A stretch of 23,750 bases of DNA. Origin: Pseudovirgaria hyperparasitica. Lineage: Eukaryota; Ascomycota; Dothideomycetes; Acrospermales; Acrospermaceae. Within the stretch, counting starts at the first letter, position 1. Each line of letters opens with the position of its first letter. The stretch covers positions 4,500-28,249 of the forward strand of contig NW_022985588.1 in the NCBI RefSeq assembly GCF_010093815.1. The letters run 5' to 3'. This document shows, piece after piece, positions 1 through 23,750 of this stretch. Under the pieces are notes generated by a model. The model did not search any database, had not been told where the DNA came from, and was given only the letters and a program-made list of their open reading frames with translations. The position numbers and the translations under genes are program-made.

Positions 1-115
1 AAGCTATATAGCCATATCTTGGATATCTCAAAGAAAAAAAAACAGGTGACGCGTCACCAGGTGACTCAAAATGCGTCACCAGGTGACTCAATAGGGTGAT
101 TTTTCGTTTTTTCTA
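1..115 (+). repeat. Tail of a spacer (IGS) repeat unit, little mutated
   Basis: This stretch matches the 3' end of the 340-bp repeats found after the 28S gene (compare 7469-7545 and 7809-7912): an A-rich run, then the 14-bp palindrome GGTGACGCGTCACC, then GTGACTCA and GTGATTTTT. This copy and the one at 7809-7912 carry one extra subrepeat of about 24 bp (a second GCGTCACCAGGTGACTCA) that the copy at 7469-7540 lacks. The rDNA unit is thus bracketed by the same repeat on both sides, as expected of intergenic-spacer subrepeats in tandem rDNA. The stretch keeps most CA/TG dinucleotides, so it largely escaped RIP. An unrelated dispersed repeat that landed on both sides is a weaker alternative. Confidence 0.7.
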
Positions 116-2900: not shown

Positions 2901-3041
2901 TTAGGTGGCGTAGGCTTCGGTCTACCCCTCCTACCCTATGTTTACTATAATCGTTACTTATGTAGATAGCCTAACAGCGTCTATATAAGAGCATTAACCC
3001 TTTAAATTTAAGAATTATCTAAGTAAAAAGAAATAGAATAA
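2901..3041 (+). other. Internal transcribed spacer 1 (ITS1)
   Basis: This is the spacer between the 18S 3' end and the 5.8S 5' end, removed from the precursor during rRNA processing. At about 141 nt it is within the fungal range. It is AT-rich and probably RIPped, so it is poor material for species identification. Confidence 0.85.
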
Positions 3042-3198
3042 AACTTTTAATAACGGATCTCTTGGTTCTAGCATCGATGAAGAACGCAGCGAAATGCGAT
3101 AGCTAGTATGAATTATAGATTTATGTGAATTATCGAGTCTTTAAACGCATATTACGCCCCTTAGCTTACTAGGGGGCATGTCTATCTAAGCGTCGTTA
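3042..3198 (+). rRNA. 5.8S rRNA gene, RIP-mutated
   Basis: This is the 5.8S rRNA, which pairs with 28S in the large subunit. It starts at AACTTTTAATAACGGATCTC (normally AACTTTCAACAACGGATCTC). The hallmark segment GCATCGATGAAGAACGCAGC is fully kept at about 3071-3090. It ends near GCGTCGTTA, giving 157 nt, the usual length. The second half is more damaged: TTGAACGCACATTGCGCC reads TTAAACGCATATTACGCC. The changes are again C to T and G to A. A few differences just after GCGATA are not simple transitions and may be real sequence drift. Confidence 0.92.
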
Positions 3199-3344
3199 TA
3201 ACTCTTAAGTTTTACTTAGTATTAGTAGTTATCCTACTTACTAGGGCACTGCTTAAATTAAACCCGACGTGCCTATCTAGGAACGTAGTAGATTTTATAA
3301 TCCTTTAGACATAGATAGGCCACTTCGAGTAGAGCCTTCTATAG
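3199..3344 (+). other. Internal transcribed spacer 2 (ITS2)
   Basis: This is the spacer between 5.8S and 28S. The flanks should form the proximal ITS2 stem: the 5.8S 3' end and the TTAACCTTAGATTAGATAGG start of 28S. At about 146 nt it has a normal length for an ascomycete. The sequence is AT-enriched, in line with RIP. Confidence 0.85.
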
Positions 3345-5549
3345 TTAACCTTAGATTAGATAGGGATACCCGCTAAACTTAAGTATATTAATAAGCGGAG
3401 GAAAAGAAACCAATAGGGATTGCCTTAGTAACGGCGAGTGAAGCGGCAACAGCTTAAATTTAAAATCTAGCACCTCTGGGTGTCCGAGTTGTAATTTATA
3501 GAGGATGCTTTAGTACCGGTACTACTCTAGGTTCTTTAGAATAGAACGCCATAGAGGGTGAGAGCCCCGTCTCTAGGCGGTGCTAGGTACCATGTAAAGC
3601 GCCTTTAACGAGTCGAGTTATTTAGGAATACAGCTCTAAATAGGAGGTAAATTTCTTCTAAAGCTAAATATAGGCTGGAGACCGATAGCGCATAAGTAGA
3701 GTAATTAAAAGATAAAAAGTACTTTAGAAAGAGAGTTAAATAGCGCGTGAAATTATTAAAAGGGAAGCGCTTATAGTTAGACTTAGCTACCCAGTTCGGT
3801 AGTGCCTCGTGTACTATCTATACTATGGTAGTTAGGCTAGCATTAGTTTAGACGGCCGGATAAAGGCTACGGGAATATAGCTCCTTTCGGGGAGTATTAT
3901 AGCCCGCGGTATAATACGGCCTATCTAGACTAAGGAACGCGCTTCGGCTCGGATACTAGCATAATAGCTATAAGCGGCCCGTCTTAAAACACGGACCAAG
4001 GAGTCTAATATCTATACGAGTGTTTAGGTGTTAAGCCCTTACGCGTAATAAAAGTAAACGGAGGTAGGAGCCCTCGGGCGTACCATTAACCGATCCTAAT
4101 GTCTTCGGAAGGATTTAAGTAAGAGCATAGCTATTAGGACCCGAAAGATAGTAAACTATACCTAAATAGAGTGAAGCTAGAGGAAACTCTAGTAGAGGCT
4201 CGTAGCGGTTCTAACGTGCAAATCGATTATTAAATTTAGGTATAGGGGCGAAAGACTAATCGAACTATCTAGTAGCTGGTTCCTACCGAAGTTTCCCTTA
4301 GGATAGTAGTAACGGAAACGCAGTTTTATAAGGTAAAGCGAATGATTAGAGGCCTAGGGGTTAAAACAACCTTCACCTATTCTTAAACTTTAAATATATA
4401 AGAAGTCCTTATTACTTAATTGAACGTGGATATTCGAATACACCGTTACTAGTAGGCCATTTTTAGTAAGTAGAACTAGCGATACGGGATGAACCGAACG
4501 CGATGTTAAGGTGCCGGAATACACGCTTATTAGATACTATAAAAGGTATTAGTTCATCTAGATAGTAGGACGGTAGCCATGGAAGTCGGAATCCGCTAAG
4601 GAGTATATAATAACTCACCTACCGAATGAACTAGCCCTAAAAATGGATGGCGCTTAAGTATGTTATCTATATATCGCCGCTAGGGTAGGCTTACTACCCT
4701 AGCGAGTAGGTAGGCGTAGAGGTCTATAATAAAGTCTTCGGGGTAACCCGGGGTCGAACGGCCTCTAGTATAGATCTTAGTAGTAGTAGTAAATACTCGA
4801 ATAAGAACTTTAAGGACTAAAGTAGGGAAGGGTTCCGTGTGAACAGTAGTTGGACACGGGTTAGTCGATTCTAAGGGGTAGGGAAACTCCGTTTTAATAT
4901 ACGCGCTTACGCGTTACCCCCCGAAAGGGAAGCCGGTTAATATCCCGGCACCTAGATATAGATTCTTCGTGGTAACGTAACTAAAGGTAGAGACGTTGGT
5001 AAGAGTCCTAGGAAGAGTTATCTTTTCTTCTTAATAGTTAAATTACCCTAAAATCGGTTTATCCGGAGCTAGGGTACTATAGCTAGAAGAGCTCTATACT
5101 TTTACGGAGTCCGGTACGCTTTTAACGACCCTTAAAAATCCGCCCGAAGTAATAGTTTTTACGCTAGCTCATACCTATAACCGTAGTAGGTCTCTAAGGT
5201 AAATAGCCTCTAGTTAATAGAATAATATAGATAAGGGAAGTCGGTAAAATAGATCCGTAACTTCGGGAAAAGGATTAGCTCTAAGGGTCGGGTACGTTAG
5301 GCCTCGGGTAGAAGGCTTAGAGGTAGGAGAGTACTAGCTTCACGGCCGGCGCTTTCCAGCCGCTAGGTTCGGATACCCTTAGTAGGTTTCGGCTGTCCGG
5401 CGTACGCTTAACGATTAACTTAGAACTAGTATAGATAAGGGGAATCTAACTATCTAATTAAAATATAGTATTACGATAGTCGTAAAACGATATTAACGTA
5501 ATATAATTTCTACCTAGTACTCTAAATATTAAAGTAAAGAAATTTAACT

Positions 5550-5582
<33 letters not shown>

Positions 5583-6038
5583 TGACCTTAAAGAGGGTTA
5601 TAAAAGAAGTTATTTAATAACTTCTAGTACTAGGCGTTACTTAGTATAACACTATTAAAGTACGGGGAGTTTCTAAAGCCTCTATCACCACGGCTATCTT
5701 AAAAGAGATAGTATAGTACTCTAGGGTAGTACCTAGGGGGATGGTAATAGTATAGAGAATGTTATAATGGATAATCCGCAGCTAAGCGCTACTAATAGCT
5801 TAGCTATTCATGCGTGCAGTTTAACGACTAAATGGTAGTGGGTTCTATCTTCTATAGAAGATAGTACTTAAGATATAGTCTCCGCCTAGAGTTAAAAAAT
5901 ATAGGGATAAAGAGCTCTTAAGGTAGCCAAATGCCTTATTATCTAATTAGTAACGCGCATAAATAGATTAACGAGATTCCTACTATCTCTATCTACTATC
6001 TAGCGAAACCATAGCCAAGGGAACGGGCTTAGTAGAAT

Positions 6039-6076
<38 letters not shown>

Positions 6077-7032
6077 TTGACATTGTGAAAAGACATAGGG
6101 GGTGTAGCATAGGTAGGAGCTTCGGCGCTAGTAAAATACCACTACCCTTATCGTTTTTTTACTTATTTAATAAAGCGGGGCTAGGCTTTACCGTCTATCT
6201 TCTAGCATTAAGGTCCTTCGCGGGCCGACCCGGGTTGAAGACATTGTCAGGTGGGGAGTTTGGCTGGGGCGGCACATCTGTTAAACCATAACGCAGGTGT
6301 CCTAAGGGGGACTCATGGAGAACAGAAATCTCCAGTAGAGCAAAAGGGCAAAAGTCCCCTTGATTTTGATTTTTAGTGTGAATATAAACTATGAAAGTAT
6401 AGCCTATCGATCCTTTAGTCCCTCGAAATTTAAGGCTAGAGATGCTAGAAAAGTTACTATAGGGATAACTAGCTTATGGTAGCTAAGCGTTTATAGCGAC
6501 GTTGCTTTTTAATCCTTTAATGTCGGCTCTTCCTATTATACCGAAGTAGAATTCGGTAAGCGTTAGATTATTTACCCACTAATAGGGAACGTAAGCTGGG
6601 TTTAGACCGTCGTGAGATAGGTTAGTTTTACCCTACTAATAAATGTTACTCTAATAGTAATTCCACTTAGTACGAGAGGAACCGCGGATTTAGATAATTA
6701 GTTTTTACGGCTATCCGACCGGGCATTACCGCGAAGCTACCATCTACTAGATTATAGCTGAACGCCTCTAAGTTAGAATCCATACTAGAAAAGGGTAATT
6801 CCTTCTTACACGTAGCAGTTAGATATGAATAGGTTCTAGACCTAGAACCTTAGTAGACTAGTAATAGCTACCTCTTTAAAGCTAAGGTAGCTAGCTAGTA
6901 TCTTATAATTTGGTAGCGTGTAGGGTGAGATCCCTTATAGACGACTTAGTTATCTAAGTCGGTCGTGTAAGTAGTCGAGTAGCCTTGTTGTTACGAGCTA
7001 CTGAGCGTAATCCGATCCTCAGCTTGATTTGT
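3345..7032 (+). rRNA. 28S (LSU) rRNA gene, RIP-mutated, interrupted by a group I intron
   Basis: This is the large-subunit rRNA, which forms the peptidyl-transferase centre. It starts at TTAACCTTAGATTAGATAGG (normally TTGACCTCGGATCAGGTAGG) and ends at the usual GATTTGT. The span is 3688 nt; removing the 332-nt intron at 5583-5914 leaves 3356 nt, normal for fungi. Conserved landmarks include AAGCGGAGGAAAAGAAACC near 3394 and the sarcin-ricin loop AGTACGAGAGGAAC near 6668. The peptidyl-transferase region is damaged: GTTACCACAGGGATAACTGG reads GTTACTATAGGGATAACTAG near 6452. RIP is uneven: about 6046-6110 and especially 6228-6365 keep the normal sequence. The gene is probably non-functional. Confidence 0.93.
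5583..5914 (+). ncRNA. Group I self-splicing intron (IC1-like) in 28S at site L1921
   Basis: The exon sequence AACTATGACT|CTCTTAAGGTAGCC is split exactly here. Core elements are readable in order: Q-like AATCCGCAGCTAAGC (5772-5786), R-like TTAACGACTAAATGGTAGTG (5821-5840, normally ACGACTAGATGG) and S-like AAGATATAGTC (5870-5880). The guide fits both splice sites. 5596-5601 GGTTAT pairs with the 5' exon end ATGACT, giving P1 with the usual U-G pair at the cut. 5591-5595 AAGAG pairs with the 3' exon start CTCTT, giving P10. The last intron base is G. The site is 4 nt upstream of the Tetrahymena L1925 site, hence L1921. No homing-endonuclease frame is visible. Some core bases carry RIP changes, so self-splicing may be impaired. 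Confidence 0.9.
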
Positions 7033-7185
7033 GGCAGGTCACTGCTCCACCATATGGGTACCTGGGTGTACTCTCTGAGGGGGAGATAAGTAAAGAGTAG
7101 GAATTATTTAGGGCCAAGGGGAACGACGAAGAAGAGTTCATATTAAGGGAGGGGTTATGGAAAGAGAGTAACTAATATGTAATAT
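7033..7185 (+). other. Spacer downstream of 28S (3'ETS/IGS), not RIPped
   Basis: This short stretch follows the 28S end. It keeps many CA and TG dinucleotides (for example CACTGCTCCACCATATGGG), in contrast to the RIPped 28S before about 7015. Processing and termination of the rRNA precursor would be expected in it, but I recognise no terminator motif. Confidence 0.6.
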
Positions 7186-7540
7186 AGTGACTTTAATGAG
7201 TGATTTTTTAAAAAACTCACGCATAAAAGTCGAGTTTGCTAGACGAGTAGTTGCGCTATAAGGACGATTGTGGCGGCTATGGAACGGCGCGAGTCGGCTC
7301 GTCAAGCTGGTGGGCTCGGCTTATCCATAGCTAGCCCGGGCGACGAGTTATTTGTAAAAGAGTATGTTTTTTTGCGAATTCACTCGCGGAAATCGCTCCT
7401 ACTCGGCCAGTTTTGATGCTATTCAACTCTAAATAGGCCTGGCATGCCCCCCAAGCACCCCCCGTTCAAGCCATATAGCCATATCTTGGATATCTCAAAG
7501 AAAAAAAAACAGGTGACGCGTCACCAGGTGACTCAATGGG
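7186..7540 (+). repeat. 340-bp IGS tandem repeat, copy 1 (largely intact)
   Basis: ACTCACGCATAAAAGTCGAG at 7215 recurs at 7555, and the whole unit repeats with a period of exactly 340. Compared with copy 2, the first 540 bases differ at only a handful of positions (for example CTAGACGAG against CTCGACGAG). The unit begins with a self-complementary GTGATTTTTT/AAAAAACTCAC stretch. It ends with an A-run and the palindrome GGTGACGCGTCACC (7512-7525), followed by AGGTGACTCA. No coding frame is apparent. The unit probably belongs to the rDNA spacer; it could be a dispersed repeat, and I did not recognise its family. Confidence 0.8.
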
Positions 7541-7880
7541 TGATTTTTTGAAAAACTCACGCATAAAAGTCGAGTTTGCTCGACGAGTAGTTGCGCTACA
7601 AGGACGATTGTGGCGGCTATGGAACGGCGCGAGTCGGCTCGTCAAGCTGGCGGGCTCGGCTTATCCATAGCTAGCCCGGGCGACGAGTTATTTGTAAAAG
7701 AGTATGTTTTTTTGCGAATTCACTCGCGGAAATCGCTCCTACTCGGCTAGTTTTAATGCTATTTAACTCTAAATAGGCCTAGTATACCCCCTAAGCACCC
7801 CCCGTTTAAGCTATATAGCTATATCTTAGATATCTTAAAGAAAAAAAATAGGTAACACGTCACTAGGTGACTTAAAATAC
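7541..7880 (+). repeat. 340-bp IGS tandem repeat, copy 2 (3' part RIPped)
   Basis: This is the second unit in register with copy 1. Up to about 7740 it is nearly identical to copy 1. From about 7750 on, differences come thick and are all C to T or G to A: CTCGGCCAG becomes CTCGGCTAG, CCATATCTTGG becomes CTATATCTTAG, and the palindrome GGTGACGCGTCACC becomes GGTAACACGTCACT. The RIP boundary therefore falls inside the repeat. Confidence 0.8.
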
Positions 7881-7912
7881 GTTACTAGATAACTTAATAG
7901 GTGATTTTTTAA
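7881..7912 (+). repeat. Partial third IGS repeat ending at the rDNA/helicase junction
   Basis: AAAATACGTTACTAGATAAC and the following GTGATTTTTT are a RIPped version of the extra subrepeat seen at 68-113. Homology to the repeat stops at about 7912, where the helicase-related sequence begins. This is the right-hand border of rDNA-type sequence in the window. Confidence 0.6.
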
Positions 7913-9954
7913 GAAGGTCTAAAGTAGTAAGACTTCTATTTCTACTTACGCTATCTATTAGATCTCTCTTATATAGAGTAATCTATAGTTAATCTTTAGG
8001 AATATCTATAGTATTAGTAGAGAAATAGATAGACTTAAGTAGAAATAAGCGAAAACTTAAGCCGAGCTTAAGCTAGTAGTATTTAAGGCTTATAGTAAAG
8101 ATTATAGCTTTAAAGAGTTAATTAGTTATATATATAGATTCCTTAAATTCTCTAAGTATTACTCTTAGATTAAGTTACGTAATCGCTTCTAATAGATTAA
8201 TAAAGGGAAATTAGTATTCTTAATAAGCTTACTCTACTTTCATTATACTAATATCCTTCTATTATCTAACTACTCTATAGTATAGATCTTTAAGGTTAAG
8301 TAAGTAGATAACTTTATAAAGTATTTTTCTAAACTTTCTAATCTTATTATAAGCGAAGTAGATAAAGCTAATATACTATATACTAATACCGGCCTCTACG
8401 AAGACCCTTATAACTTTTAGATTATTAAACTTATAGCTAGTAAGCTTCTTAGTATAGGTTTTACTATTCTATTATATATTAGACCTAATATAATATATAA
8501 ATAAGTAAAGTAATTCTTTAAAGATCTAGGTACTTATACTATAGTTTATATCTTACTACCGCTATATAACTCTATAGATCTTACCGGCTTTAATAATAAG
8601 CTTAAACTAGAGAGTAATCCGATTAATTTATGGTATATAGAAGTTACTACTCTCTATATATAATATAGTATATTAAGTAGGCTGGATACTTAGCCCTAGA
8701 TCTCTATTCTCTACCACGAGTTATTCGATAAGAAATTTAACTATCTAATATATATTACTATAAGTACCTTATAAGATAAATAGATAGATCTTCTATTATT
8801 CTAATTCTAAGACGTTACTATCGGGTATATCTAGCTCTTAGATATTACTTAGGCGCTCTTAGCTATTATCTATTCTATTAATATAAAAGGATTCTATTAT
8901 ATAGAACTAGGTAGTTGTAGATACCTTAAAGTAGATTTAAAGGATTATAATAATAATATATACCGCTTTAAAGTCCTTTAATTTCGTCTAGGCGTTCTTC
9001 TATTTAAATACCTTACTCTAAAAGTCTTTAATAAGGTTAGACGTCCTTCTAAAGTACCTAACATACTAATTATATTAATAGATTTAGTTACTAATATAAC
9101 TTAAGCTTATTCTAAATATTTTATTCGGACTAGCAATACTAGTTTAAGTATAATTAGATTATCCCTTACTACGCTTATAGGGTTTATAGATATTCTAGCT
9201 TTAGTTAGTATATAAACCTATAATAAGCTTACTAAGTAATATATTAATATATACTAGAAACTAACCTACTACGCTATATAAGCTTCTAGAGATAGCGGCG
9301 TAGATAACTACGCCGCTTAGAATATATTTAATATAATAGTCCTTAATGTTATTATAGACTTAGTATCTATATCTCTAATATATAGGTCCTCTAACTCTAA
9401 CGACGAGATTCTAGATTATAGTATAGAGTCTTAGAATACTCTTATTACTCTTTCTAAATTATCTATATCTCTAGATAATAATAAGGATATAAATATAGAA
9501 TATAGTCACGATATTATTAGTAATAAAGGTTCTATTACTAGCCCTATTACTAATATATATATACTTCTAATATTATCTAAAGTCTACTCTAGTATTCTAT
9601 CCCCTTTACGACCCTCTATATAGAATCTAATACTTAGTAATAACTATCTAAATCTTTAACCTATCGACTATAACCACTACGTTAAAGATTATAAAAGATT
9701 CTATAATCTCTAGAATATTATATATTTAGAACTATCTCTCTAATAATAGTATATCTATATATAGATAACGGACGTACTTAGGGCTTAGTTTCTACTTCAC
9801 GGCTACGGAGGAGCTAGGAAGAGCTATTTATAGCTTCGTCTACTACTAGCTATACTTCTAATTAATAAAATAAATAGTACTTCTATTATTACTTATACTA
9901 CTAAGGTAGTTATTCTATCTAGTAATATAATAGCGTATCTTCCTATACTAGGTT

Positions 9955-10008
9955 CCACCTAAATATATAGAATATATATATATATATATTATTATTAATC
10001 TAACTAAC
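9955..10008 (+). other. Reading-frame switch in the helicase: lost intron or (TA)n slippage
   Basis: The helicase reading frame changes by one register here, between the motif Ia region and the next readable block starting near 10009. The interval holds an ATATATATAT tract and CTAACTAAC, which resembles a fungal branch site. A short spliceosomal intron whose borders were altered by RIP, or a slippage indel in the TA tract, would both explain it. Confidence 0.4.
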
Positions 10009-11820
10009 AAAACCTATAACGATACTATAAGAAAAGTATATAAATATATAAGTAATATATTTACTCGCTATAAGTCTCTAAAGATACCGGTTATTCTTTA
10101 AAGATACCCCGAAGCTATTAATTAAGAGGTTTTCTTTACTATAGCTAGACTATCTTATTACGGCGACCCTCTTATCGGACTAACCTAGAATAATATAATA
10201 GATAGTACTATTCTTATATAAGTCTAGGCTAACTATAGTAAATAACTATTAGAATATAGTACGGATCCCCGTACTTATCTATAGAAACTATATACTAGTT
10301 ATATTATACTTAAGATTATTAGACTTATTAAATCTTAATACTAATATAAATAGATCCCTAAGAATTTCGAGAAAGAAACGGCTTAGCTATTATATACTAT
10401 CTATAAACGTTATACTTATAATAAGGACATGCCTAAGGAGGAGTATAATAGAAAAAATAAGCTATACCTCGCTATCTAGGACCTAGTTACTATCTATGCC
10501 TAGATTTATATAGGGACCCTATATATTATAAACATCGCTAAGGTAGCCTATAATATATATCCGATTTTAGTTATAATAGAAGAGACTATATATATTCTTA
10601 AAAGTAATATACTTAGGATTATTATTAATTATACTACTATAGAATAGTAACCGATATTTATTTATGTTAGCGACCTATACTAGCTTAATATCTACTAGTA
10701 TAATAGTACTAATATATAGACCGCGAACCAGAGAATCTCCTTTATAAAGCGCTAGATATAATATAGTTTTCTAACTACTCGCCTTACCGAGTTAGAACGC
10801 TTAGTTCCTAGAATAATAAACGTTATATTACTAATTACTTACTTAGACGAGCTAACGACCTTACTCTATATAATAAATAATATTAATATAGTACTTATAG
10901 AGACCTTTCGATAAATATTTAGAATCTATAGCTATTAATATATTATATATACTAACGTTAATAGGGATTACGCGTATATAGTAAATAACTTAATATATAA
11001 TATAGACTTATTACGTTTTACTTAGTAGATTATTACTAAGCTCTTCTATTATAGTATTATACTCGATTATATACTCTATATTTCTATATACGCTATCTAA
11101 CGTAATCTATTTAAAGGGATAGTTAGGAACTCGCTTCTAACTATACTTACTATAGCGGATAAAGCTCGATTTAATACTCTATCTAAGTCGGTATAGAAGC
11201 TTATCTAATAGCGTTTATAGGACGGTTCTTAGAGTTATAATAATAATATAGTCCTTATTAACCCGGTCTAAACTAATTACTTTAGCTTTCTCTTAGAAGT
11301 AAACCGTAATATTATTACTTTTACACGCGCTAAATAGATAATAGTTATTATTACTAACTTTATATCTCTTAAGAGGTAGAGAGTTCTAGATAGTATACTC
11401 GGCGAGATATAGAATAAGTACTCTAAGATTTATATAATATATACGTACACGACCCCTAACCTAGATAGCCTCCCTCTACTCTCTAATATATCTAATCTCT
11501 AATATAGTTACTCTATACTTAGTATTAGAGAGAGGGGAGAATAAAGTAATTAATAAACTACTAATAGTACTAAGCTCTATAAGCCGCTAGTCTACCGTAA
11601 ATATAACGTTAAAGAATATAAGTCTATTAAGTATCTAAGAGGGTTAACGCTTATATATAATAACTATTAGAATATTAGCTATAAAGCTAATATTTACCCT
11701 AAACCTAAGACGCTTACAGATACGTTTTACTATAATTATAAAACTACTAGTTATACCCAGCATTATTATCCTAGCCATACTAAATTACTAGTATATATAA
11801 ATAGTAATAATCTAGTTAAT

Positions 11821-11907
11821 ACTACTAGAGCTAATACTACTAGAGCTAATACTACTAGAACTAATACTACTAGAACTAATACTACTAGAGCTAATACTAC
11901 TAATAAA
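11821..11907 (+). repeat. 15-bp in-frame minisatellite (TTGAN-type pentapeptide)
   Basis: Five copies of ACTACTAGA(G/A)CTAAT stand in tandem, followed by a partial sixth. The period is 15 bp and they are in the same frame as the zinc knuckle just upstream. They read as Thr-Thr-Arg-Ala/Thr-Asn; undoing the usual G to A change in AGA gives Thr-Thr-Gly-Ala-Asn. This is probably a flexible low-complexity linker after the knuckle. Confidence 0.85.
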
Positions 11908-12400
11908 GTAACTACTAGTAGCTAGAACGATAGAGACTATAAGGATACTAACTAAGATAGCGGTATTATAATATATAAAGACATAGAAGTTAATTAGTAT
12001 AGTATATAACTAGACTTATATATTAGGGCTACTTAGTTACGGCTTCTTAGTAAGTATACCTCTATATCTATTTTAGATATAGTTATAATATTCTACTAGG
12101 TAGATAGTTTAGCTCTATTAAAGATCTATTAAGGGTATTTCTATTATATCTACTCTAGTATAGATACGCTATTAGATAATATAGCGCTACTAGGTACGTT
12201 AACTAGTACCTACTAATTATAAAATAAATATAATTCTATATCTATTATAAGCCCCGGCCTAATAATATAGGCTTCCTTTAGTTATCTCCTTTATACTTTT
12301 AAAACTACTTCTAGTCTTTATATTAGAAGATATTACTATCTAAAGAGAAAATATAAAAAAACATACGCCCTAATTAAAGCCTCTACCTTTAGACTTTAAC

Positions 12401-12414
12401 TATAATATATATAG
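12401..12414 (+). repeat. Left target-site duplication of LINE B
   Basis: TATAATATATATAG occurs here and again at 23028-23041, exactly flanking the LINE B element with its (ATT)n tail on the right. Fourteen bases is a normal duplication length for LINEs. The sequence is simple AT, so chance contributes, but its position at both borders of the element supports it. Confidence 0.65.
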
Positions 12415-12835
12415 GGAAAAACCTTCCTATACCCTAAGGGACTAAAACTAGTTAATTCGGGGCGATATAGCGATCTATAAACATTAATTAATAGAGTATA
12501 CTAAGTATAATAACTTCTAACATATATACGTACATATAGCGTATAATACACGACGGTACTAATATATAGAGATACTATATATATATACTTAAAAACTCTT
12601 TAGAGTAATAAGCACGGACTACCGCTAATAAACGCCGACATGCTAACCCCCTTTATTAGTTAAGGGTAGCCCTTATCTAATAATTATAGCGGCCTTAGGC
12701 ACCGCCATACCCCGGCTCTTACTAGGTATACCTCTACTACTAGTATAGTAGAAACGGCTATATAGTGGTATATTCTAGGACGACCAAACTACTATTCTAA
12801 AAGTAAAAAACGCCTAGAGATATAAAGTACTATAG
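12415..12835 (+). other. 5'UTR of LINE B
   Basis: This is homologous over its whole length to 12846-13257, the 5'UTR of LINE A; shared blocks include TAGTTAATTCGGGG-type sequence near 12449 and AATAAACGCCGACA near 12627. It lies immediately before the ORF1 start codon (ATG now ATA at 12836). It contains a hairpin at 12653-12683 and would be expected to carry an internal promoter, but none can be pointed to. The two copies look like a tandem repeat but are better explained as the 5'UTRs of two nested elements. Confidence 0.75.
12653..12683 (+). other. 5'UTR hairpin of LINE B (14-bp arms, 3-nt loop)
   Basis: TTATTAGTTAAGGG, loop TAG, CCCTTATCTAATAA: one mismatch in 14 pairs. The same hairpin occurs at 13078-13108, 17855-17885 and 22756-22786. 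Confidence 0.75.
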
Positions 12836-12845
12836 ATAACTAAGA
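12831..12845 (+). repeat. Left target-site duplication of LINE A
   Basis: TATAGATAACTAAGA here is identical to 18133-18147. In the right copy it runs straight on into the rest of LINE B ORF1; in the left copy it follows LINE B 5'UTR. The pair therefore marks the insertion point of LINE A at codons 1-4 of LINE B ORF1. The first few bases could be shared with the (TAT)n tail. Confidence 0.8.
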
Positions 12846-13257
12846 AAAACTTCTCACACCCCAACGGACCAAACTGGTTAATTCGGGGCAAAACAGCGAT
12901 TTATATACATTAAACGATAGAGCACACCGAGTACAACAACCTCCGACACACGTACGTACGTGTAGCGTATAATATACGACGATACTAACGTGTAGAGACA
13001 CTATATATACGCTCGAAGACTCTTTAACAACACGAGTATAGACCATATCTAATAAACGCCGACACGCCGACCCCCTTTTATTAGTTAAGGGCTACCCTTA
13101 ACTAATAACCATGGCGGCCTTAGGCATCGTAATACCCCGGCATACGCCGGATATACCCCCACTAGTATAGTAGAAACGGCTATATAGCGACATTAATATA
13201 GATAGCTAGACACCTATCTAAAATATAGGAACTAACTAAGGGTGCGAAGCGCTATAG
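12846..13257 (+). other. 5'UTR of LINE A
   Basis: These 412 nt begin at AAAACTTCTCACACCCC just after the target duplication and end at the ORF1 start. The copy is less mutated than the LINE B counterpart. It holds the perfect hairpin 13078-13108 and, downstream, CCGGCATACGCCGG (13137-13150), itself an inverted repeat. Both motifs have relatives near the ORF2 stop (17798-17885). No credible protein frame was found; an antisense frame at 12840-13046 is judged spurious. Confidence 0.75.
13078..13108 (+). other. 5'UTR hairpin of LINE A (perfect 14-bp arms)
   Basis: TTATTAGTTAAGGG, loop CTA, CCCTTAACTAATAA: a perfect inverted repeat about 150 nt upstream of the ORF1 start. It is the best preserved of four copies. 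Confidence 0.85.
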
Positions 13258-14559
13258 ATAACCTAGACCGAGGGGACCCTAAGAGGGGAGACCCTTCTAG
13301 ATAAAATCAAATACTAGGTAACATATATAGAGAGGAACGCCGAGGAGGGAAAGAAGACCCTCCTTTATATATTCTAGGACCTTATCCGGAACCTAAGAGA
13401 AATCATAGAGGAAGAAAGGAAGTCGCTACGAGAGGAACCTAGTAGTAGGCTCGACCGAATGGAAGCCAGCCTACGGAGAATCTAGAAAGAGCTATTCTAA
13501 GGTAAGCGCCCTAATACGGGGGCTTAGATTATAGTAATACCCGGAGCCACCGCACTAAGGACCACTAGAACTATAGATAGAGTATATAGTATACGTATCG
13601 TAATCTAGAATAAGGACACGCTGGCGTAGGTCTAATAGGCATCCCTAAAGGAAATTATAAATAAGATTAACGAATAGAAAGGAATGTAGTCGAGCGTCGT
13701 AGCTACTAAAGTTACACTAGGTGGGGTAGTACTTACTACTATAACGAATACTACGTAGTAAAACATCTCGCGAGATCCGAACGCGATAGGTAGTATCTTC
13801 CCCGGCACGTCCATTAGGGCAGCTATATACCCGATTATAGTATACGCAGTACCCGTGCGGGGACAGGCTATTAGAGCGGAGGATATTACGCGCATAGAAC
13901 AATCCAACACGCGAAAATACCTAGGGATTAAGATCGTGAAAGCGTGGTAGAAGAACCCATAGGCGATTAAGACGACGGTAAAAAAACACTCTACTATAAT
14001 TATAGAGCTCCGAGACCCTACCCTCGCATAATACATTATATAGAAGGGATTCCTAGTAGAAGGAGAGCTCCTTATGGCCGAGCCATAGGATAGAGCATGG
14101 GTAATAACATAGTACTTTAACTATTAAGGGTATAGATACACTATACAAAGGTACTTATAGAAGACCAAGTGCGGATAGTACCGTGGGGACCACGCTACCT
14201 AGGAGTGCCCTCATGAACCGCGAGGAGACGGACTAAGAAATAGGGACATAGTATAGTGTTTAAACTGCGACGGGAAACACCTGTCGTGGTCGTTAACGTG
14301 TATAAAACGTAAACAGGTCATAGAATACATTCGCACGATAAAAGTAAGAGGCGCGAGATGGTTATAGAACATGACATCTACCACGGGCCCTTCCTTTATA
14401 ACACCCCTAACCTCCCCTCCGGAAGGTAGTTAGGCGGGATAGTAGACTATCCTAAAGACGATAGGACGACTAAAAGGTATAGTTAAAGCCGCTACCGCGC
14501 GAGGATAGTCGCGCCTCTAAGGAATAAGCATATAGATATATATACTTTCTAGTACCTAA
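13258..14559 (+). pseudogene. LINE A ORF1: gag-like RNA-binding protein with three zinc knuckles
   Basis: ORF1 proteins of Tad LINEs bind the element RNA to form the ribonucleoprotein that is reverse transcribed. The frame is continuous for 433 codons, from ATA (former ATG) at 13258 to TAA at 14557-14559, broken only by TAG/TAA at likely Gln/Trp codons. The start is chosen because LINE B has the matching ATA-ACN codons at the same point. Residues 20-90 are charged and Leu-rich, possibly a coiled coil. The zinc knuckles follow. Knuckle 1 (14113-14154, CX2CX4HX4C) has all ligands turned to Tyr. Knuckle 2 (14170-14208) has lost one Cys. Knuckle 3 (14257-14301, CX2CX3HX6C) is intact. The stop overlaps the ORF2 start. 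Confidence 0.85.
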
Positions 14560-17500
14560 TAAGGGACTAGAATATACTCCAAATTATATAGATAAACGTA
14601 TAATATAAAAGAGAGAACTAGGCGACGCTCCTCGAAGAGACTGGGGCCATAATACTCGCCATCTAGGAACCCTATAAACACTACTAGACGAGCAAACCAA
14701 CTATACACCCCGGATACCATACTATATACCCTCTAGGACTAGAAAGACGAGTCCTCTTCTACATTTATAGGTTAATACCACTCTTATTATGGTCGTATAC
14801 CGAGCGCGATAACCTTAGGATAATACTACACCTATAAACAGATATAGGCCCCCTATATATATATAATATATATAACTAATAACGTGTACTTATACTAGAC
14901 GAGATGCTCGAGGGTACCACGGAACCAGGGTAACACATTCTCCTAGGAGACTTTAACCTCTACCACTAATAGTAGGGAGGCCTAGCCGTGGTTAGGGAAG
15001 AACTTAGAGTAAGGGAACTACGCACCCGCTACCACGACTTCCTATACCTACTCACACCTATAGGATAAGTCATATAGAAAAAACATAAATAGGACGAAGA
15101 CGGGTCCACGCTTAACCTTACCTTCGCCACGGAGTATATTAGTTACCGGATCCAATACTACCGCCTAGGCTAGGTATAGACGGATTCCGACCACGAATGC
15201 ATAGAAACCGCAATAAACGTGCATACCCCGAATGAATAACGGGGACGATAGATATGGAAGGACACCGACTAGGAAAAGTACCTAAAGGACCTGGAATCGG
15301 CGATCCTAGATCCCTCTATAGTTAATGTATCTAACGACCTAGCCATAGACCAGGCCGTATAGACACTCCTATAAATATACTAGAATACGAGAAATAAACA
15401 CGTACTATACCGAATATACCGGCCCCCGGAAGCAAAGGGGATTCCTCGAGTACGGGAAAGTAGATAAGACGCCCGAAGGCTATATACACGCGTATACCGT
15501 ATAAGAATACCCGAGTCATAGGAAGAATAGAAGGAAGCGATACGATAACGCGATAAAGTCCTCTATAACGAAAGGCGTAAATAGTAGCGTATAATTACTA
15601 GTTAATAGACACGATACGTAATAGGGCTATAGCGTATAGCGAAATGGGCCAAGGGCGTAGACACTCTAACACCCCCGCCACTTATACCTCCCCTAATACA
15701 TTAGAGGAGAATATACTTCACGAGCCTTAAGAAAACTAAGGCCCTACGGGAGGCCATGTTCCCTCTCCCGGAACTAGTAGACCTATTAGACGTTTATGGC
15801 GCTAAATATCTATACACGGTAGACATCCCCGAAGAAGTTACGGAGAAGGATATACTTAATATTATTAAGACACTCCCAAATAATAAAGCACCTAGACCAG
15901 ATGGAATTCCAAATCGATGCCTAAAAAGTACTATAAAAGCGACCCTACCGCTTATTACTCGTATATTCCAAGCATACGTCACGTAGGGGTACCACCCCTA
16001 GTGCTTCCGAGTCGCCTATACTATTATACTCCCGAAACTAGGAAAGAGCCCTAACTCCCTAAAGGGATGGAGACCAATCGCCCTTCTCTTCTACCTAGGT
16101 AAGATACTAGAGGCCACGATAGCGAAGAAGATGAGCACCGCGGTATAGGAATATAATCTTCTCCCTCCGAACTAGAAGGCAAAGATAGATAGCTCCCTAA
16201 TAATAGCTATCTAATATATTATCGAAGTCGTCTAGGCCGTATAGAAACAGGGACGGGTAGTATCGCTCCTCTCCCTCGATATGGCCGGAGCGTTTAATAA
16301 GGTAAACCATATAAGACTTATTCATAACCTCCGGATAAGACGAATACTAGAATAGATTACACGCTTTATATAGTCATTCCTCATAGGAAGAACAACTTAG
16401 ATATATATCCCTAGGTACCAGAGCGAATACAAAGAGACGGTATACGGTATCCTATAAGGGAGCACCATCTCTCCGATCCTATTCCTCTTCTTTACGGTAG
16501 ACCTTCTTTAAGGAATAAAGTATATAGAGGTAGTCGGATACGCCGATGATATATACCTTCTAGCCATTAATAATAATACTAACCGAACGTATAGACGACT
16601 AGAACAGGACTACGAGAGGTACCTCTAGTAGGTAAAACGCCACGGAGTAAAGTTCGCCCTAGAGAAATACTAGCTCATGCACTTTATTAATCATTAAGGG
16701 AAATAGATAACTAGGGAAGGCGAACGACGCCCCCGAATCGACGCATTTAACGAACTACTAGTATAAAGCATGCGCGCGCTCGGAGTTATACTAGATAGTA
16801 AGCTTAAATGGGGACCATAAGTGGTATACACCGTCTCTAGGGCCCTCTAGATAGAAGCCGCTATACGACGGATTATAGTCTCTATATAGGGAACCGCCCG
16901 GGATAAGGCACGCTAGCTATATATATCTATAGTACGACCCGCCTTCACGTACGGACACGAGTGCTAGTATACGGCCCTTATATAGACTAGGCGAATAAAG
17001 CTCGAATCCATATAGAACCGCATACTCCGTCTTATATTAGGCGTATATAAAGCTACTAACACGGTGCTACTACGACGCGAGACAGACGTCACAAGTATAC
17101 ATAACTTCTACTAGACATAGAGGGTGGTATACTTCACTAAATAATAAGTATAGGAACGTATAGAAAACGTAGAACATACTTTCGCCGCGCTACGCGCACG
17201 AATTAGTATACATTACCGCGTACTCCTACACACAGGCCGGAATCGAATACGGTACAGGTGCTTAATAGAAGCCGACTCTAGCTAAGTAGTATAAGAAGTC
17301 CGAGATAACCCGGACGCTCTTCTAGACCGGTAGAGTCTTTAAGAACTCGTGAAAAATATACGGTCGTGGACTTAAGATAAGTAGAAAGAGGCACTCTATG
17401 CCTACTAGACCTTCTAGTAGGATAGGTACCTAGAGTAGATTCGAGGGCCATGGAAGGAACCGAGTAAATGGATGTATAAAGGGCTAACGAAAGCCTAAGT

Positions 17501-17861
17501 ATCTATACTCATCCAAGCCCGAACGGGCGCCATGGGACTCCTATACTATATCTATAAGAGAGGCGTTCCCGACACCTCCCTATGGTATAAGGCGTACGGC
17601 CGGAGAGGTATAATACGCCACTATCTAGCTATATGCTCTAACCTCTATATATAACGGTAATAGCTTATCCACGTTACGAAGACTTTAGATATCGTACAAT
17701 AGCTTAATAAGTACCCTAAGGATGTCTCCCGATGGATGCTTACATATCTACTACTCCCCTAGTACTAGTGGACCCGGAAATATATACCGGAAGAGACCCG
17801 GCATACGCTGGTAGTAACCCGACATATACCGGAAGAACCCCGGGAGAACTCTAATTATTAG
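14559..17861 (+). pseudogene. LINE A ORF2: endonuclease and reverse transcriptase
   Basis: This is the replication protein of the element: it nicks the target and reverse transcribes the RNA. It spans 1100 codons in one frame from ATA (former ATG) at 14559 to TAG at 17859-17861. An AP-type endonuclease is at about residues 5-215, with the GDFN motif at 130-133 (14946-14957) and SDH at 210-212 (15186-15194). A reverse transcriptase follows: the finger motif KAP-x-PDGIP is near residue 443 (15885), with one Gly read as Arg, and the catalytic YADD is at 661-664 (16539-16550). The C-terminus has a CX2C...HX4C zinc finger (17586-17636) whose first two Cys are now Tyr. An uninterrupted stretch of 76 codons (15756-15986) covers the finger region. 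I see no RNase H domain. RIP stops prevent expression. Confidence 0.9.
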
Positions 17862-17885
17862 TCGAGGGTAGCCCTTAACTAATAA
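17855..17885 (+). other. 3' hairpin of LINE A at the ORF2 stop
   Basis: TTATTAGTCGAGGG, loop TAG, CCCTTAACTAATAA. The two imperfect pairs fall where this arm has CG and the other copies have TA, as though one arm was RIPped and the other not. The ORF2 stop codon lies within the first arm. Confidence 0.8.
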
Positions 17886-18105
17886 CCTCCGCACCTACAC
17901 GTGCTACCTAAGGGTAAAACAACGGTAACATAGGCTATAGACTAATAGGCGTACCCTATAGCTATATACTCAAGACGAAACAGAGGTTCAATGAGATATA
18001 GTTATAGACATAAGGAAGTTTTTCCCTATGGGGTTCCTTCTTACATAGTGGCTTAGACTAGAGAAGGCATAGGCCTATAGAGTACTACTCTACCTAGTTA
18101 TACAA

Positions 18106-18132
<27 letters not shown>
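17862..18132 (+). other. 3'UTR and (ATT)n tail of LINE A
   Basis: This is non-coding, homologous to 22763-23027 in LINE B, with shared blocks such as GTGCTACCTAAGGGTAAAAC at 17909-17928. It ends in an (ATT)n run from about 18105. A simple-sequence tail of this kind, instead of poly(A), is found in some LINE groups. Beyond the hairpin I see no other defined element. Confidence 0.8.
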
Positions 18133-18136
<4 letters not shown>

Positions 18137-18147
18137 GATAACTAAGA
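18133..18147 (+). repeat. Right target-site duplication of LINE A
   Basis: TATAGATAACTAAGA is identical to 12831-12845. It starts directly after the (TAT)n tail and continues as LINE B ORF1. Confidence 0.8.
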
Positions 18148-19460
18148 TAGAGAGGACTCTACTCGCGGACACCCTCGTAGATAAGATTAAATACTAGGTA
18201 GCACGTATAGAGAGGGAGGTCGAGAGAGAAGAGACTACCCTCCTTAATATCTTCTAGAGCCTAGTCTAGAATATTAAGAGGCTTACTATAGAAGTAAAAT
18301 AGATACCGGAAGTAAGCCCGGAGTCTAGGCTAGACTAAATTAAGGCTAGTCTACTAAGAATCTAGGAAGGCCTTACCTAGAAGAAATATCTAACTACCTA
18401 GGCATAAGTCGTAGCACCATTAGGTAGCATAACTAGGATAACCTAAATACTAAGAATATCTATAGGAGAAGCATATAGCGTACGGATCGCTATCTAGGAT
18501 AAGAAAGTCCTTATATAGGTCTAGAAGGTATCTCTAAAGGACATTATTAATAAGATTAATAAATAAAAAGGGATATAGTTAAATGTAGTCGTAGCTAAAC
18601 TTACCCTAGAAGGTATAGTACTAACTACTACTACTAATATAGCCTAGTAGACTATCTCCCGTAACCCGAACGCGATTAATAATATCTTCTCTAGCGCCTC
18701 TGTCCACGCTAACACGTACCCGATATAGATATATATAGTCCCTATCCGGGGACATGTTATCGGCGCTAATAATATCGAGCGAATAGAATAATCCAATAAC
18801 CGGAAGTACCCTAGAATTAAGATCGTAAAGGCATGGTAGAAGAACGTATAAGGGATTAAGGTAAAATTAAAAAAGCACTCTACTATAATAGTAGAGCTCC
18901 GAGACCCCGCCCTCGTCTATTAGATTATATAGAAGGGCTTCTTAGCTAAGAGGGAGTTACTTATAGTAGAACCATAGAATAGGGCTTAGATAATAACCTA
19001 ATACTTTAACTATTAGGGATACGGATATATAGGGTAGAGGTACTCTTAGAAGGCTATCTACGGATAGTACCGATAGGGCCATAGTACCTAGAAATACCTA
19101 TATAAAGCCTAAGGGGAATATATACATAATAAAGATACTACTAAGTACTCTAACTACGATAGGAATTACCTATTATAGTTAGCGATATATATAAAACGTA
19201 AATAAATCGCTAAGTATATTAATACTATAAAGGCGAGAGGAGCGAGGTAGATATAATAGACTATAAGGCCTCTACTATCTACTCTAACTATACCCGTAAA
19301 CGCACTAACCAACTTATAAGAAGGCGGGTCTAATATATAATAGCATACTATATAGAGAAAGATAGGGCGACCCTAGGGTATTCTTAAGGCAGCTACCGCG
19401 TAGAGATAGTCACGCCTTAACGCTACTAGTATATAGGCTTAAGCGTTCCCTAGCACCTAA
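18138..19460 (+). pseudogene. LINE B ORF1: gag-like protein, heavily RIPped
   Basis: This is the same protein as LINE A ORF1, 440 codons here; it is 7 codons longer through in-frame length differences. It starts at ATA 18138 (former ATG; the duplicate start at 12836 lies across the LINE A insertion) and ends at TAA 19458-19460. The first zinc knuckle (19002-19043) and the third (about 19144-19190) have lost their Cys and His ligands to Tyr. It is cut off from its own 5'UTR by LINE A. The frame is continuous apart from TAA/TAG at Gln/Trp positions. Confidence 0.85.
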
Positions 19461-22400
19461 TAAGGAGCTAAGATATACTTATTATTATATAGGCGAACGT
19501 ATAATATAAACGAGAAAACCAGGCCACGCTCCTAGAAGAGATAGATACCGTAATAATAGCTATCTAGAAGCTATATAAACACTACTAAACCGATAAACTA
19601 ACAACACACCTAGGATACTATACTATCTACCCCCCGGACCTAGATAGGAGAGTCCTATTCTATATATATAAATCTATCCCGCTCTTAGAATAGTCCTATA
19701 TAGAACGGGATAATCTCCGGATAATACTATACCTCTAGATAGAAATAGGGCCTCTCTATATATATAATATCTATAACTAGAGAGAATTACTTACGCCGGA
19801 CGCTATACTAGAGAGTATCACGGAACTAGAATAATATATCCTTCTAGGCGACTTTAACCTCTACTATAGATAGTAGGGAGGCCCGATAGTCCTTAGGGAA
19901 GAGCTTAGAGTAAGGGAATTATATACGAGGTGCTATAACCTTCTATACCTCCTTACGCTAGTTAGATAAACCATATAGAGGAAATATAAGGAGGATAAGG
20001 AGGGATCTATACTCGACCTTACCCTCGCCATAGAATATATAAGCCATAGAGTATAATATTACTACTCTAGTAAGACGTAGATAGACTCTAACTATAAATA
20101 TATAGAGACCGTAATAGATATATCTATATCTAACGAATAATGGGGGAGATAGCTATAGAAAGACACTAACTAGAAGAAGTATAGGGAGGACCTAGGATCG
20201 GCGATTCTAGACCCCTCTATAGTTAACGTATCTAATAGCCCGACTATAGATAGGGCCGTATAAGTCCTTCTTTAAGCCTTCTAAAACTTAAGAGATAAAC
20301 ACGTGCCGTACTAAACGTATAAGCCCCTAGACGTAAGGGGTATACCTTAAATACGTGAAAGTAGAAGGGAAGCCCGGAGACTATATATACGCGTATACTA
20401 TATCTAGATAACTAAGATATAGAAGAAATAGAAAGAGGTAATCCGATCTTATAATAGGACCCTCCGTAATAAATAACGTAAATAATAGTATATAATTACT
20501 AATAAATACACACGCCAGGCCGTAGAACTATAGTATATAGTAAAGTAGGCTAAGAGCGTAGACGTACCGACGCTACTACCACTAATACCTCCCTTAATAT
20601 ACTAGGGAAGGATATATACCACGAGCCCCGAAAAGATAGAGATCCTCTAAGAAGTTATATTTCCCCCCCTAGAGCTAGTAGACCTATTAGATATTAATAA
20701 TAATATATATCTAGACACGGTTAATATTCCCGTAGAGATTACGGTAGAAGATATACTCGACGCTATTAAAACACTCCCGAATAATAAAGCGCCCGGACTA
20801 GATAGAATACCGAATAGATGCCTTAAATATACTATATAGGTGACCTTACCACTTATTAGTCTTATCTTCTAGGTATACGCTAAGAACGGGTACCACCCCT
20901 AAAGCTTCTAGACCGCCTATACTATTATACTCCTAAAGCTAGGGAAGAACCCTAACTCCCTAAAAGGATAGAGACTAATTACCCTTCTCTTCTATCTTAG
21001 TAAGATACTTAAGGCTACGATCGCGAAGAAGATAAGTACCGTAGTATAAGAATATAACCTCCTTCTAGCAAACTAGAAGATAAAGACCGGGAGCTCTCTA
21101 ATTACCGCTATCTAATATATCCTCGAAGTTATCTAGACTATATAGAAGTAGGGACGCGTAGTAATACTACTCTCCTTTAATATAGCCGGTATATTTAATA
21201 AGGTAAACTATATAAGACTTATCTATAATCTATAGAAGAGACGTATACCCGAATAGATTACAAAGTTTATATAGTTCTTCCTCGCCGAAAGAATTACCTA
21301 GATATATATCTCTAGATATTAAAGTAAATATAAGAAGATAATATATAGTATTCTATAAGGAAGTACTATCTCTCCGATCCTCTTTCTCTTCTTTACCATA
21401 GACCTTCTATAGGGGATATAGTATATAGAGATAGTAGAATACGCTAATAATATATACCTCCTAGCTATTAATAATAATACTAGTTTAATATATAAACGCC
21501 TTAAATAAGACCATGAGAGATATATCTAGTAGGTAAAGTACTACGGAGTAAAGTTCGCCCCTAAGAAATACTAACTTATATACTTTATTAACCGCCGTAG
21601 GAAATAGACTACTAAGGAAGGAGAGTAACGTTCTAGAATAGATACTTTTAATAAACCGCCGACATAGAGTATATATATACTTAGCGTTATAATTAATAAT
21701 AAACTTAAATAGAGCCTATAGATTGTATATATAGTATCTAGGGCCCTTAAGATAGAAGCCGCTATACACCGGATTACGGCCTCCATATAGGGAACCGCCT
21801 AGGATAAGGCGCGCTAGCTATATATCTCTATAGTACGACCCGCCTTCACGTACGGACACGAGTACTAGTATATAGCCCTTATATAGGCTAGGTAAATAAA
21901 GCTCGAGTCTATATAGAACCGTATACTCCGCCTTATATCTAGCGTATATAAAGCTACTAATATAGTACTACTACGGCGCAAGATAAACGTAATAAGTATA
22001 TAAGACTTCTACTAGATATAGAGGGTAATATACTTTACTAAATAATAAGTATAGGAATACGTAGGATACGCCGAATATATCTTCGCCGCGCTATATATAT
22101 AAGTTAATATCTACTACTAAGTACTACTATATATAGACTAGACTTAACTATAATATAAGAGTCTAATAGAGACGGACTTAAACTAAATTATATAGAAGAT
22201 CAGGGATAACCCGGATGTCTCCCTAGACCGGTAGAACCCTTAGGAGCTTATACGGGCTATATAGTCGTAGACCTAGAATAAATAGAAGGAAGTCCTCCGG
22301 ACCTGTTAGACATTCTAATAGAATAGGTATCTAGAATAGATCCGGGGACTATAGAAGAAACCGAGTAGATAGATATACAAGGGGCTTACGAAAGCCTAAG

Positions 22401-22762
22401 TATCTATCCTCCTCTAAGCCTAAATAGAAGCTATAGGACTTCTATACTACTTATACTAGAGGGGCGTCCTAGACGCGTCTCTATAGTATAAAGTATACGG
22501 CCGGAGAGATATAATATAGTACTATCTTACGATATACCCGGACCTCTATACGTAGAGATAATCGCTTATCTATACGATAAGGACCTTTAATATCACGTGG
22601 TAGCTTAATAAGTACCCTAAGGAGATCGCCTAATAGATACTTATATACCTCTCTCTCCCCTAATACTAATAGACCCGGATATATATACCGGAAGTAACTA
22701 GGTATATACTAGATAGACCCCGATATACGCCGGAAGAACCCTAGGAGAACCCCGATTATTAG
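19460..22762 (+). pseudogene. LINE B ORF2: endonuclease and reverse transcriptase, catalytically dead
   Basis: This is homologous codon for codon to LINE A ORF2, with the same length (3303 nt), start overlap and stop. The reverse transcriptase box reads YANN (21440-21451): both catalytic Asp codons GAT became AAT. The endonuclease SDH reads SNY (20087-20095). RIP-type stops are denser than in LINE A. The endonuclease GDFN motif is still visible near 19847. Even without stops the protein would lack the metal-binding Asp pair needed for polymerisation. Confidence 0.88.
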
Positions 22763-22786
22763 TTAAGGGCGACTCTTAACTAATAA
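22756..22786 (+). other. 3' hairpin of LINE B at the ORF2 stop
   Basis: TTATTAGTTAAGGG, loop CGA, CTCTTAACTAATAA: 14-bp arms with one G-T pair. It is at the same place relative to the ORF2 stop as in LINE A. Confidence 0.8.
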
Positions 22787-23027
22787 CCCCCGTACTCTAT
22801 ACGTGCTACCTAAGGGTAAAACGATAGTACTATAGGTTATAGGTCTATAGATATTCCTAACGGCTATATACTTAAGATAACACGAAGGTTTCACGAGATG
22901 TAGTTATAGAGAGAAGGGAGTTTTTCCTTATATAAAGGTTTCTTCTTATATAATAGCTTAGACTAAAGGAGGTATATACCTATAGAGTAAACTACTCTAT
23001 CTAGTTATATAATATTATTATTATTAT
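22763..23027 (+). other. 3'UTR and (ATT)n tail of LINE B
   Basis: This is non-coding, homologous to 17862-18132, and ends in a shorter (ATT)n run from about 23013. The right target duplication follows directly. Confidence 0.8.
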
Positions 23028-23041
23028 TATAATATATATAG
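23028..23041 (+). repeat. Right target-site duplication of LINE B
   Basis: TATAATATATATAG is identical to 12401-12414. It marks where the interrupted helicase locus resumes. Confidence 0.65.
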
Positions 23042-23750
23042 AATATAGTAAACCTAAATATCGCGTACTTTAAAAGCATAGAAGGATATAATACTTAAAT
23101 ATAATAAAATATAGGCTTATAATACTCGGAGAGTATCTAGGGATAAGTATATGAATATAAAATAGAATAAGACTAACGCGGTACCTTATATATATATAGC
23201 TATATACTATTCTAGACGTAGTTACCTACGATATAATATTATAAGATAAGAATTATAGCTATCTAATTCTATTAAGGGTATTAGATAATATAAAGTAAAT
23301 AACTATACGTCTAACCATGCTACGCTAAGTTACGTACGTATTATAAACGTATATTTAAGGAATAATAAGAATATAAACGAGTTTCACCTGGTAGATACCT
23401 TATTATTCTAGCTTCTACCTCTATTATCTAATCTATATCTCTATCTTTCTTACGTCTATAATATACTACGTATATACTATATAATTAGTCTATAAATTAT
23501 AAATACTATATTAACTACGTACGTTAACTATATATAATTAATATATTAAATCCGATTCTATAATAAAGTAACCGTCTAAATATAGTAATTACTATAGTAC
23601 TACTTTATATCTTAAGCCTAGATATATAAGTAAAGCGTAAAGCTATAGAGGCGCGTATAAGGTAGCTATATATAGAAGTATATATAGCTACTCTACTTAT
23701 AGACTATAGGTATTAAACTAAGAATAAGCTTAGTATAAAAAGAGTATATA
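23042..23750 (+). pseudogene. Probable continuation of the helicase-locus reading frame, unknown domain
   Basis: This is host sequence beyond LINE B, running off the window. Joining it to 12414 with one copy of the duplication keeps a frame readable for most of the 709 bases, with only TAA/TAG stops of RIP type. The decoded segments look protein-like (for example a His-Ala-Thr-Leu-Ser-like stretch near 23310) but match no family I recognise. In DNA this rich in TA, other frames can also look open, so the coding claim is tentative. No other gene is visible here. Confidence 0.35.

Follow-up and report, generated by a model that had tools for sequence, protein, structure and literature searches.

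What is the heavily mutated superfamily 1 (SF1) helicase gene that occupies part of a 23,750-nucleotide stretch of the Pseudovirgaria hyperparasitica genome, and does it move as a unit of its own? The stretch, called the window below, is C40:4500-28249 of an assembly of 35.0 Mb in 59 contigs (labelled C, with copies named by their contig), and it extends to the right-hand end of its contig. A preliminary description had proposed the gene as a candidate for an undescribed mobile or subtelomeric gene family. The best explanation as a whole, to which we give a probability of about 0.82, is that window positions 7909-12414 and 23028-23750 are the remains of one copy of a Plavaka-group class II DNA transposon about 22 kb long. 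What carries this explanation is the ends of the copies, their target duplications, the transposase and helicase domains and their order, and repeat-induced point mutation (RIP).

Alignment with the copies on C21 and C6 shows that the two window pieces, now far apart, are directly joined in other copies. The window and C40 stop at 23750, where other copies continue into an SNF2-like gene and a 3' terminal inverted repeat (TIR). The limits first given for the gene, 7913 to 12414, fit the repeat boundaries obtained by copy comparison, although these boundaries are edges produced by later insertions and not gene ends. Homology among copies runs far past both edges of the window. The first boundary to emerge was a sharp 3' end, after which C14 yielded a 5' end with the same sequence in inverted orientation. 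A TIR pattern tolerant of RIP occurs at 40 sites in the genome (35 exact, five with one mismatch), while the reversed control pattern gave none. All seven copies with both ends have 26-bp TIRs whose two ends differ only by one to four transitions, and all seven copies with both flanks have a 2-bp target site duplication (TA four times, TT, CG and AA); by eye, the flanks of these seven differ from each other. Four copies (C6, C14, C20 and C26) measure 21.9-22.4 kb from end to end, approximately so in C6 and C14, and three measure 27.8-30.0 kb; the C14 copy is without about 470 bp that the C4 and C10 copies have. Because of its ends, target duplications and differing flanks, it is the whole unit that has moved. 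Looking for terminal repeats at the copy ends, as had been proposed, thus settled the nature of the helicase family: it is mobile, as suspected, by riding in a transposon of about 22 kb with TIRs and target duplications, and it is one gene of that Plavaka-type element rather than a mobile unit or family by itself.

The helicase gene, together with a 3' end resembling CTRR followed by T (here CCTAA followed by T), had raised the alternative of a Helitron, and the 3' end does read CTAAT in the four copies first compared. However, the two ends are inverted repeats of each other and are flanked by a target duplication. Domain searches covered all six frames of the C4 copy's left part and of the C6 stretch, and the three plus frames of L052 and of the C4 right piece; these frames contain no Helitron_like_N or PIF1 match, but do contain a Plavaka transposase match. 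TIRs and target duplications refute a Helitron, which we regard as having practically no chance of being correct.

The transposase lies in the left part of the C4 copy, where the EnSpm-like Plavaka transposase (PF18759) is matched with E=2.3e-27 and 96.5 bits against a cut-off of 26.3, stops being read as X. The genome holds 25 stretches that match it, spread over 22 places, and every one of them contains at least one stop; 14 control genomes gave no match. To its left, on the opposite strand, the C4 copy has a DUF6532 match (E=9.1e-8, 32.6 bits versus a cut-off of 24). With 39 of 39 helicase matches of the genome search taken into the pairing, 18 of the 22 places have a helicase no more than 30 kb after the transposase and on its strand; at 11 of them the two starts are 8.0-8.7 kb apart. 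From left to right the gene order is the DUF6532 match (opposite strand), the transposase, the helicase, a frame of 78-residue repeats and an SNF2-like ATPase domain, which the 78-residue (234 bp) repeats precede. The frame shared by repeats and SNF2-like domain has 35 stops in the C4 piece, versus 101 and 92 in the other two plus frames, and SNF2 motifs were noted by eye; the SNF2 domain is weakly shown. No TET/JBP match was found by Pfam in the frames scanned, where a RIP-damaged TET/JBP gene could escape detection.

Larger pieces of the SNF2 region occur at 20 places, and they are not uniform. Those at C7:1631901, C17:37225, C9:1465935 and C30:111294, with a piece on C34, form a second type that is 54-59% identical to the C4 copy, whereas identity is 65-69% for the region on C23 and 76-90% for the remaining larger ones. 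Despite their second-type SNF2 regions, C7 and C17 have helicases with 76-81% identity to that of the C4 copy; on C21 the helicase (77%) and the SNF2 region (78%) agree. It may be that the element exchanged its right half. At C8:1582804-1623428, 40 kb between two TIR matches hold the left part, the transposase and the SNF2-like region, with no helicase among the matches, perhaps as a composite or deleted copy.

The gene had also been described as RIPped and formerly multicopy, and both descriptions hold. Across 8001-12500, 500-bp windows have a GC content of 25-30%, a (CA+TG)/(AC+GT) ratio of 0.02-0.10 and a TA/AT ratio of 1.5-2.0. This loss of CA and TG is a CpA-type RIP signature, typical of Pezizomycotina. 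A 2.1 kb probe has 33 DNA matches in the genome, 18 of them nearly full length; two more distant copies (66% DNA identity), on C15 and C4, have many stops, and their matching part lacks any 80-codon open frame. Neither of the results that would have contradicted the first description, a single-copy ancestor or an assignment of the region to another family, turned up within this genome. When 17 of the 18 near-full-length copies were aligned, omitting L012, which carries an insertion, 1116 of 1140 two-state columns were transitions, and 22 columns had more states. Transversion differences number only 0-17 per pair of copies over 4.2 kb, and 0-6 among the eleven less-RIPped copies. Given so few transversions and the almost exclusive occurrence of transitions, the copies spread in a recent burst and their divergence is almost wholly of RIP type. 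RIP states at 280 variable CA/TG-TA sites are weakly correlated between copies (-0.06 to 0.37) and form no clear clusters, as expected if the copies were hit separately. Counting against separate hits, 43 of the 79 codons that have a stop in some copy have one in all 17. The common stops could reflect saturation at preferred RIP sites or the mobilization of an ancestor that was already mutated.

Several observations weigh against the Plavaka assignment or parts of it. Since the flanks were already known when the outermost C or G was counted as part of the element, the agreement of seven in seven target duplications is partly post hoc; the published end CATCA supports giving this base to the element. 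Only two of the 14 ends read CATCA, the PlavakaB rule, with nine reading CATTA and three TATTA, a difference that RIP of CATCA would explain. Runs of N interrupt the C14 and C6 copies, whose lengths are accordingly approximate. The SNF2 matches (PF00176) of the C6 copy reach 17.2 and 15.1 bits against a gathering score of 24.9 (best E=0.0029), which is why the domain is called SNF2-like here; Pfam gave no SNF2 match in the three plus frames of the C4 piece, and a profile of the region matched no solved structure in the PDB. Another, stop-rich frame of the C4 piece matches AAA_33 (25.0 bits, cut-off 27, E=2.5e-5), which we read as a chance match in repeats. No intact copy was seen, and therefore no activity can be inferred. 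Four of the 22 transposase places are without a downstream helicase, and, because the copies stem from one recent burst, the gene order they have in common cannot count as independent evidence for selection.

The four places without a downstream helicase also favor the main rival explanation, that the block of helicase and SNF2-like gene is a separate element which had inserted into a Plavaka transposon ahead of the burst and was carried along as a passenger with no role in transposition. A single burst leaves room for such earlier nesting, the two types of right half show that this part is able to differ, and a stop-free relative of the helicase stands alone at C2:597267-597653. This solitary relative shares 40% identity with 132 residues of the query (E=3.4e-25) and spans 350-bp windows of 55% and 38% GC; in the 1.4 kb of surroundings viewed, it looks like a lone fragment of an older related element largely spared by RIP, or a captured fragment. 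A second relative at C10:989895-990545 has one stop (31% identity, E=9e-13); a TIR match that stands isolated is located about 3.3 kb away from it. Set against nesting are the order and strand of transposase and helicase, kept at 18 of 22 places, 11 of them with the 8.0-8.7 kb spacing, and the copies on C6 and C21, whose alignment runs without a break from the helicase through the SNF2 region almost to the 3' end. Nothing resembling a second pair of ends was noticed within these two copies, though no systematic search for one was made. We consider nesting of a passenger block unlikely and retain a single transposon that includes both genes.

Turning to the helicase itself, the window copy contains SF1 motifs in the expected order (Table 1); the names Walker A, II, III and VI are those we take to apply to these stretches. 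It does not have the single frame of more than 1400 codons first reported. Its reading frame changes from that of 7401, which holds the N-terminus and Walker A, to that of 7402, which holds motif II and all that follows, implying a frameshift near 9976-10055 in this copy; a search with the C4 copy likewise splits it into two overlapping pieces. Stops in the motif-bearing frames number 43 over the 696 codons of 7909-10000 and 41 over the 653 codons of 10000-11960, the fewest of the three plus frames in both stretches, with one minus frame of the second stretch having 40. Among 15 other near-full-length copies (a comparison with the window copy and L012 outside it, and L017 aligned from 1065 on only), 11 hold the frame of the C4 copy (L026) over their best aligned stretch and four (L011, L013, L014 and L015) shift.

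An alignment of the less-RIPped copies (A1; the 11 of 18 near-full-length copies with a GC content of at least 0.359, seven being left out) was used for family assignment. AAA_12 (PF13087) is matched in all 11, with a best E of 1.1e-10. The profile of the 11 matched ZNFX1 (E=4e-5), Sen1 (0.018), Upf1/NAM7 (0.073) and SMUBP-2 (0.79), and no other protein was present in the eight matched sequences. By these matches the predicted helicase is an Upf1-like enzyme; that it is SF1 and not of the RecQ type agrees with the preliminary description. The pentapeptide repeat is likewise real, reading NTTRA in 5.7 units of 15 bp, and the genome contains 29 exact matches to a 24-base piece of it. The CX2CX4HX4C zinc knuckle fared less well: in all 17 copies Tyr stands at three of the four presumed ligand positions, and at the fourth there is Tyr in 16 copies and Cys in one, so that the sequence as written is without it. 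A former CCHC knuckle is plausible all the same, because RIP can convert both Cys and His codons to Tyr codons. A viral origin was considered and rejected, a scan of IMG/VR with the helicase alignment having given 222 pattern matches and no confirmed relative; in the frames scanned no viral family reached the cut-off, the nanovirus Clink profile (E=0.26) falling far under it.

The other possibility raised at the outset, a subtelomeric helicase family like TLH or Y' that was amplified by recombination at chromosome ends, finds some agreement in the short distance, less than 100 kb, that separates 11 of the 18 near-full-length copies from a contig end. These distances are to contig ends, not telomeres, and fit either a subtelomeric bias or contigs that simply break in repeat-rich blocks. 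Four near-full-length copies (C1, C4, C8 and C10) are 473-994 kb from a contig end, the helicase is Upf1-like and not RecQ, and recombination would not produce seven paired ends with differing flanks, each with a 2-bp target duplication. A subtelomeric family is thus very improbable.

As to mechanism, knowledge of the family makes it most likely that the Plavaka transposase cut and pasted the whole unit, and that the copies spread in their burst before being mutated by RIP. The two ATPases may have served as accessory proteins for a very long transposon, for example by unwinding or remodeling chromatin or nucleic acid at its ends or in repair. They would be carried much like the TET/JBP genes of other Plavaka elements and the helicases of AcademH, KolobokH and Helitrons. 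To us an accessory role is the likeliest reading, at just short of even odds. A broader proposal, possible but doubtful, is that a giant Plavaka lineage in RIP-competent fungi encodes a motor toolkit, an Upf1/ZNFX1-like SF1 helicase with an SNF2-type remodeler, which the transposase would need for moving 22 kb or for escaping chromatin silencing. If so, this would be the first CACTA/EnSpm-group transposon with a two-ATPase module, as far as the literature searched goes.

Table 1. Features of the window, in window coordinates.
Feature	Position	Strand	Evidence
Left of two surviving transposon pieces: most of the SF1 helicase gene, RIPped, frameshifted near 9976-10055	7909..12414	+	Alignment with C21 and C6 copies; frames and stops; 33 genome matches
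Walker A-like motif FLLHGYGGARKSYL	9789..9830	+	Frame of 7401
SF1 motif II-like PILVIIEE	10561..10584	+	Frame of 7402
AAA_12-type region, motif III to motif VI (NRNIITFTRAK)	10660..11334	+	Frame reading; AAA_12 in less-RIPped copies
Motif III IYVSDLY	10660..10680	+	Translation
TTRLTELERLVPRI	10774..10815	+	Translation, between motif III and motif VI
Motif VI FLLEVNRNIITFTRAK	11287..11334	+	Translation
Inferred CCHC zinc-knuckle position; presumed ligands read Tyr in the window copy	11722..11769	+	Copy alignment
15-bp tandem repeat, 5.7 units, NTTRA/NTTRT	11817..11902	+	Repeat scan; translation
Two LINE-like retrotransposon copies of about 4.9 kb in tandem, inserted, outside the element	12415..23027	.	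4901 bp repeat spacing; absent from other copies; reverse transcriptase match
Right of the two surviving transposon pieces; in other copies it adjoins 12414 directly	23028..23750	+	Copy comparison

The insertion that separates the two transposon pieces is 10.6 kb long and resembles a pair of long interspersed nuclear elements (LINEs), with repeat blocks that are 68-84% alike; the reverse transcriptase (PF00078) of the first copy is matched with E=2.3e-18, and related sequence also adjoins transposon copies on C9, C17 and C21. Upstream of the helicase piece, a repeat of about 340 bp like a long terminal repeat (LTR) is present as two tandem units at 7187-7872 (region 7187-7910), and its end recurs near window positions 1-104. 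These repeats, from which alone the feature is named, suggest an LTR element with a further LTR. Six-frame translation of window 2500-7500 gave no Pfam domain match, and the left and middle part of the C4 copy has no match in C40:1-4499 or in window 1-7908.

Like the helicase described here, the telomere-linked helicases of fungi (TLH) are multicopy in a fungal genome, but they are RecQ-type and subtelomeric, whereas the present one is not RecQ-type and very probably not subtelomeric. The SF1 helicases ZNFX1, Sen1 and Upf1 are matched by the 11-copy profile, but the helicase described here is borne by a transposon and has an unrecognized N-terminus, an inferred CCHC knuckle and a pentapeptide repeat near its C-terminus. 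AcademH, KolobokH and Helitron elements have transposases and target duplications that differ from those found here. They are also DNA transposons that encode a helicase; the available part of PMC10799480 gives them as sources of Helicase_C, DEAD and PIF1 helicases.

Within Plavaka itself, present also in Rhizophagus according to the accessible portion of PMC11075540, the available part of PMC12730594 describes families reconstructed from Agaricomycotina: PlavakaA, with ends TGT..ACA and a 2-bp target duplication, and PlavakaB, with ends 5'-CATCA..TGATG-3', a duplication of 2-3 bp and TET/JBP genes inside its elements. In their end sequence and 2-bp target duplication, the ends found here resemble those of PlavakaB. 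As described in that text, PlavakaB (CMCT/EnSpm group) shares with the present element the Plavaka transposase domain, the 2-bp duplication and an internal accessory gene, and probably also CATCA-like ends. The differences are a length of about 22 kb, an Upf1-like SF1 helicase and an SNF2-like ATPase in place of any TET/JBP match in the frames scanned, and a host with CpA-type RIP rather than a member of the Agaricomycotina, from which the families in the available part of PMC12730594 come. The literature searched, which left out most subscription papers, contains no report of a Plavaka element with an Upf1-like or SNF2 gene. The case also illustrates that the ends of the copies, rather than repair of the sequence, can reveal the identity of a heavily RIPped gene that seems to be an orphan. 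TET/JBP cargo in Plavaka and helicases in a few other fungal DNA transposons are already known; a Plavaka element with an Upf1-like helicase and an SNF2-like ATPase would add a different class of cargo beside TET/JBP, through which a role for such enzymes as accessories of transposition becomes testable.

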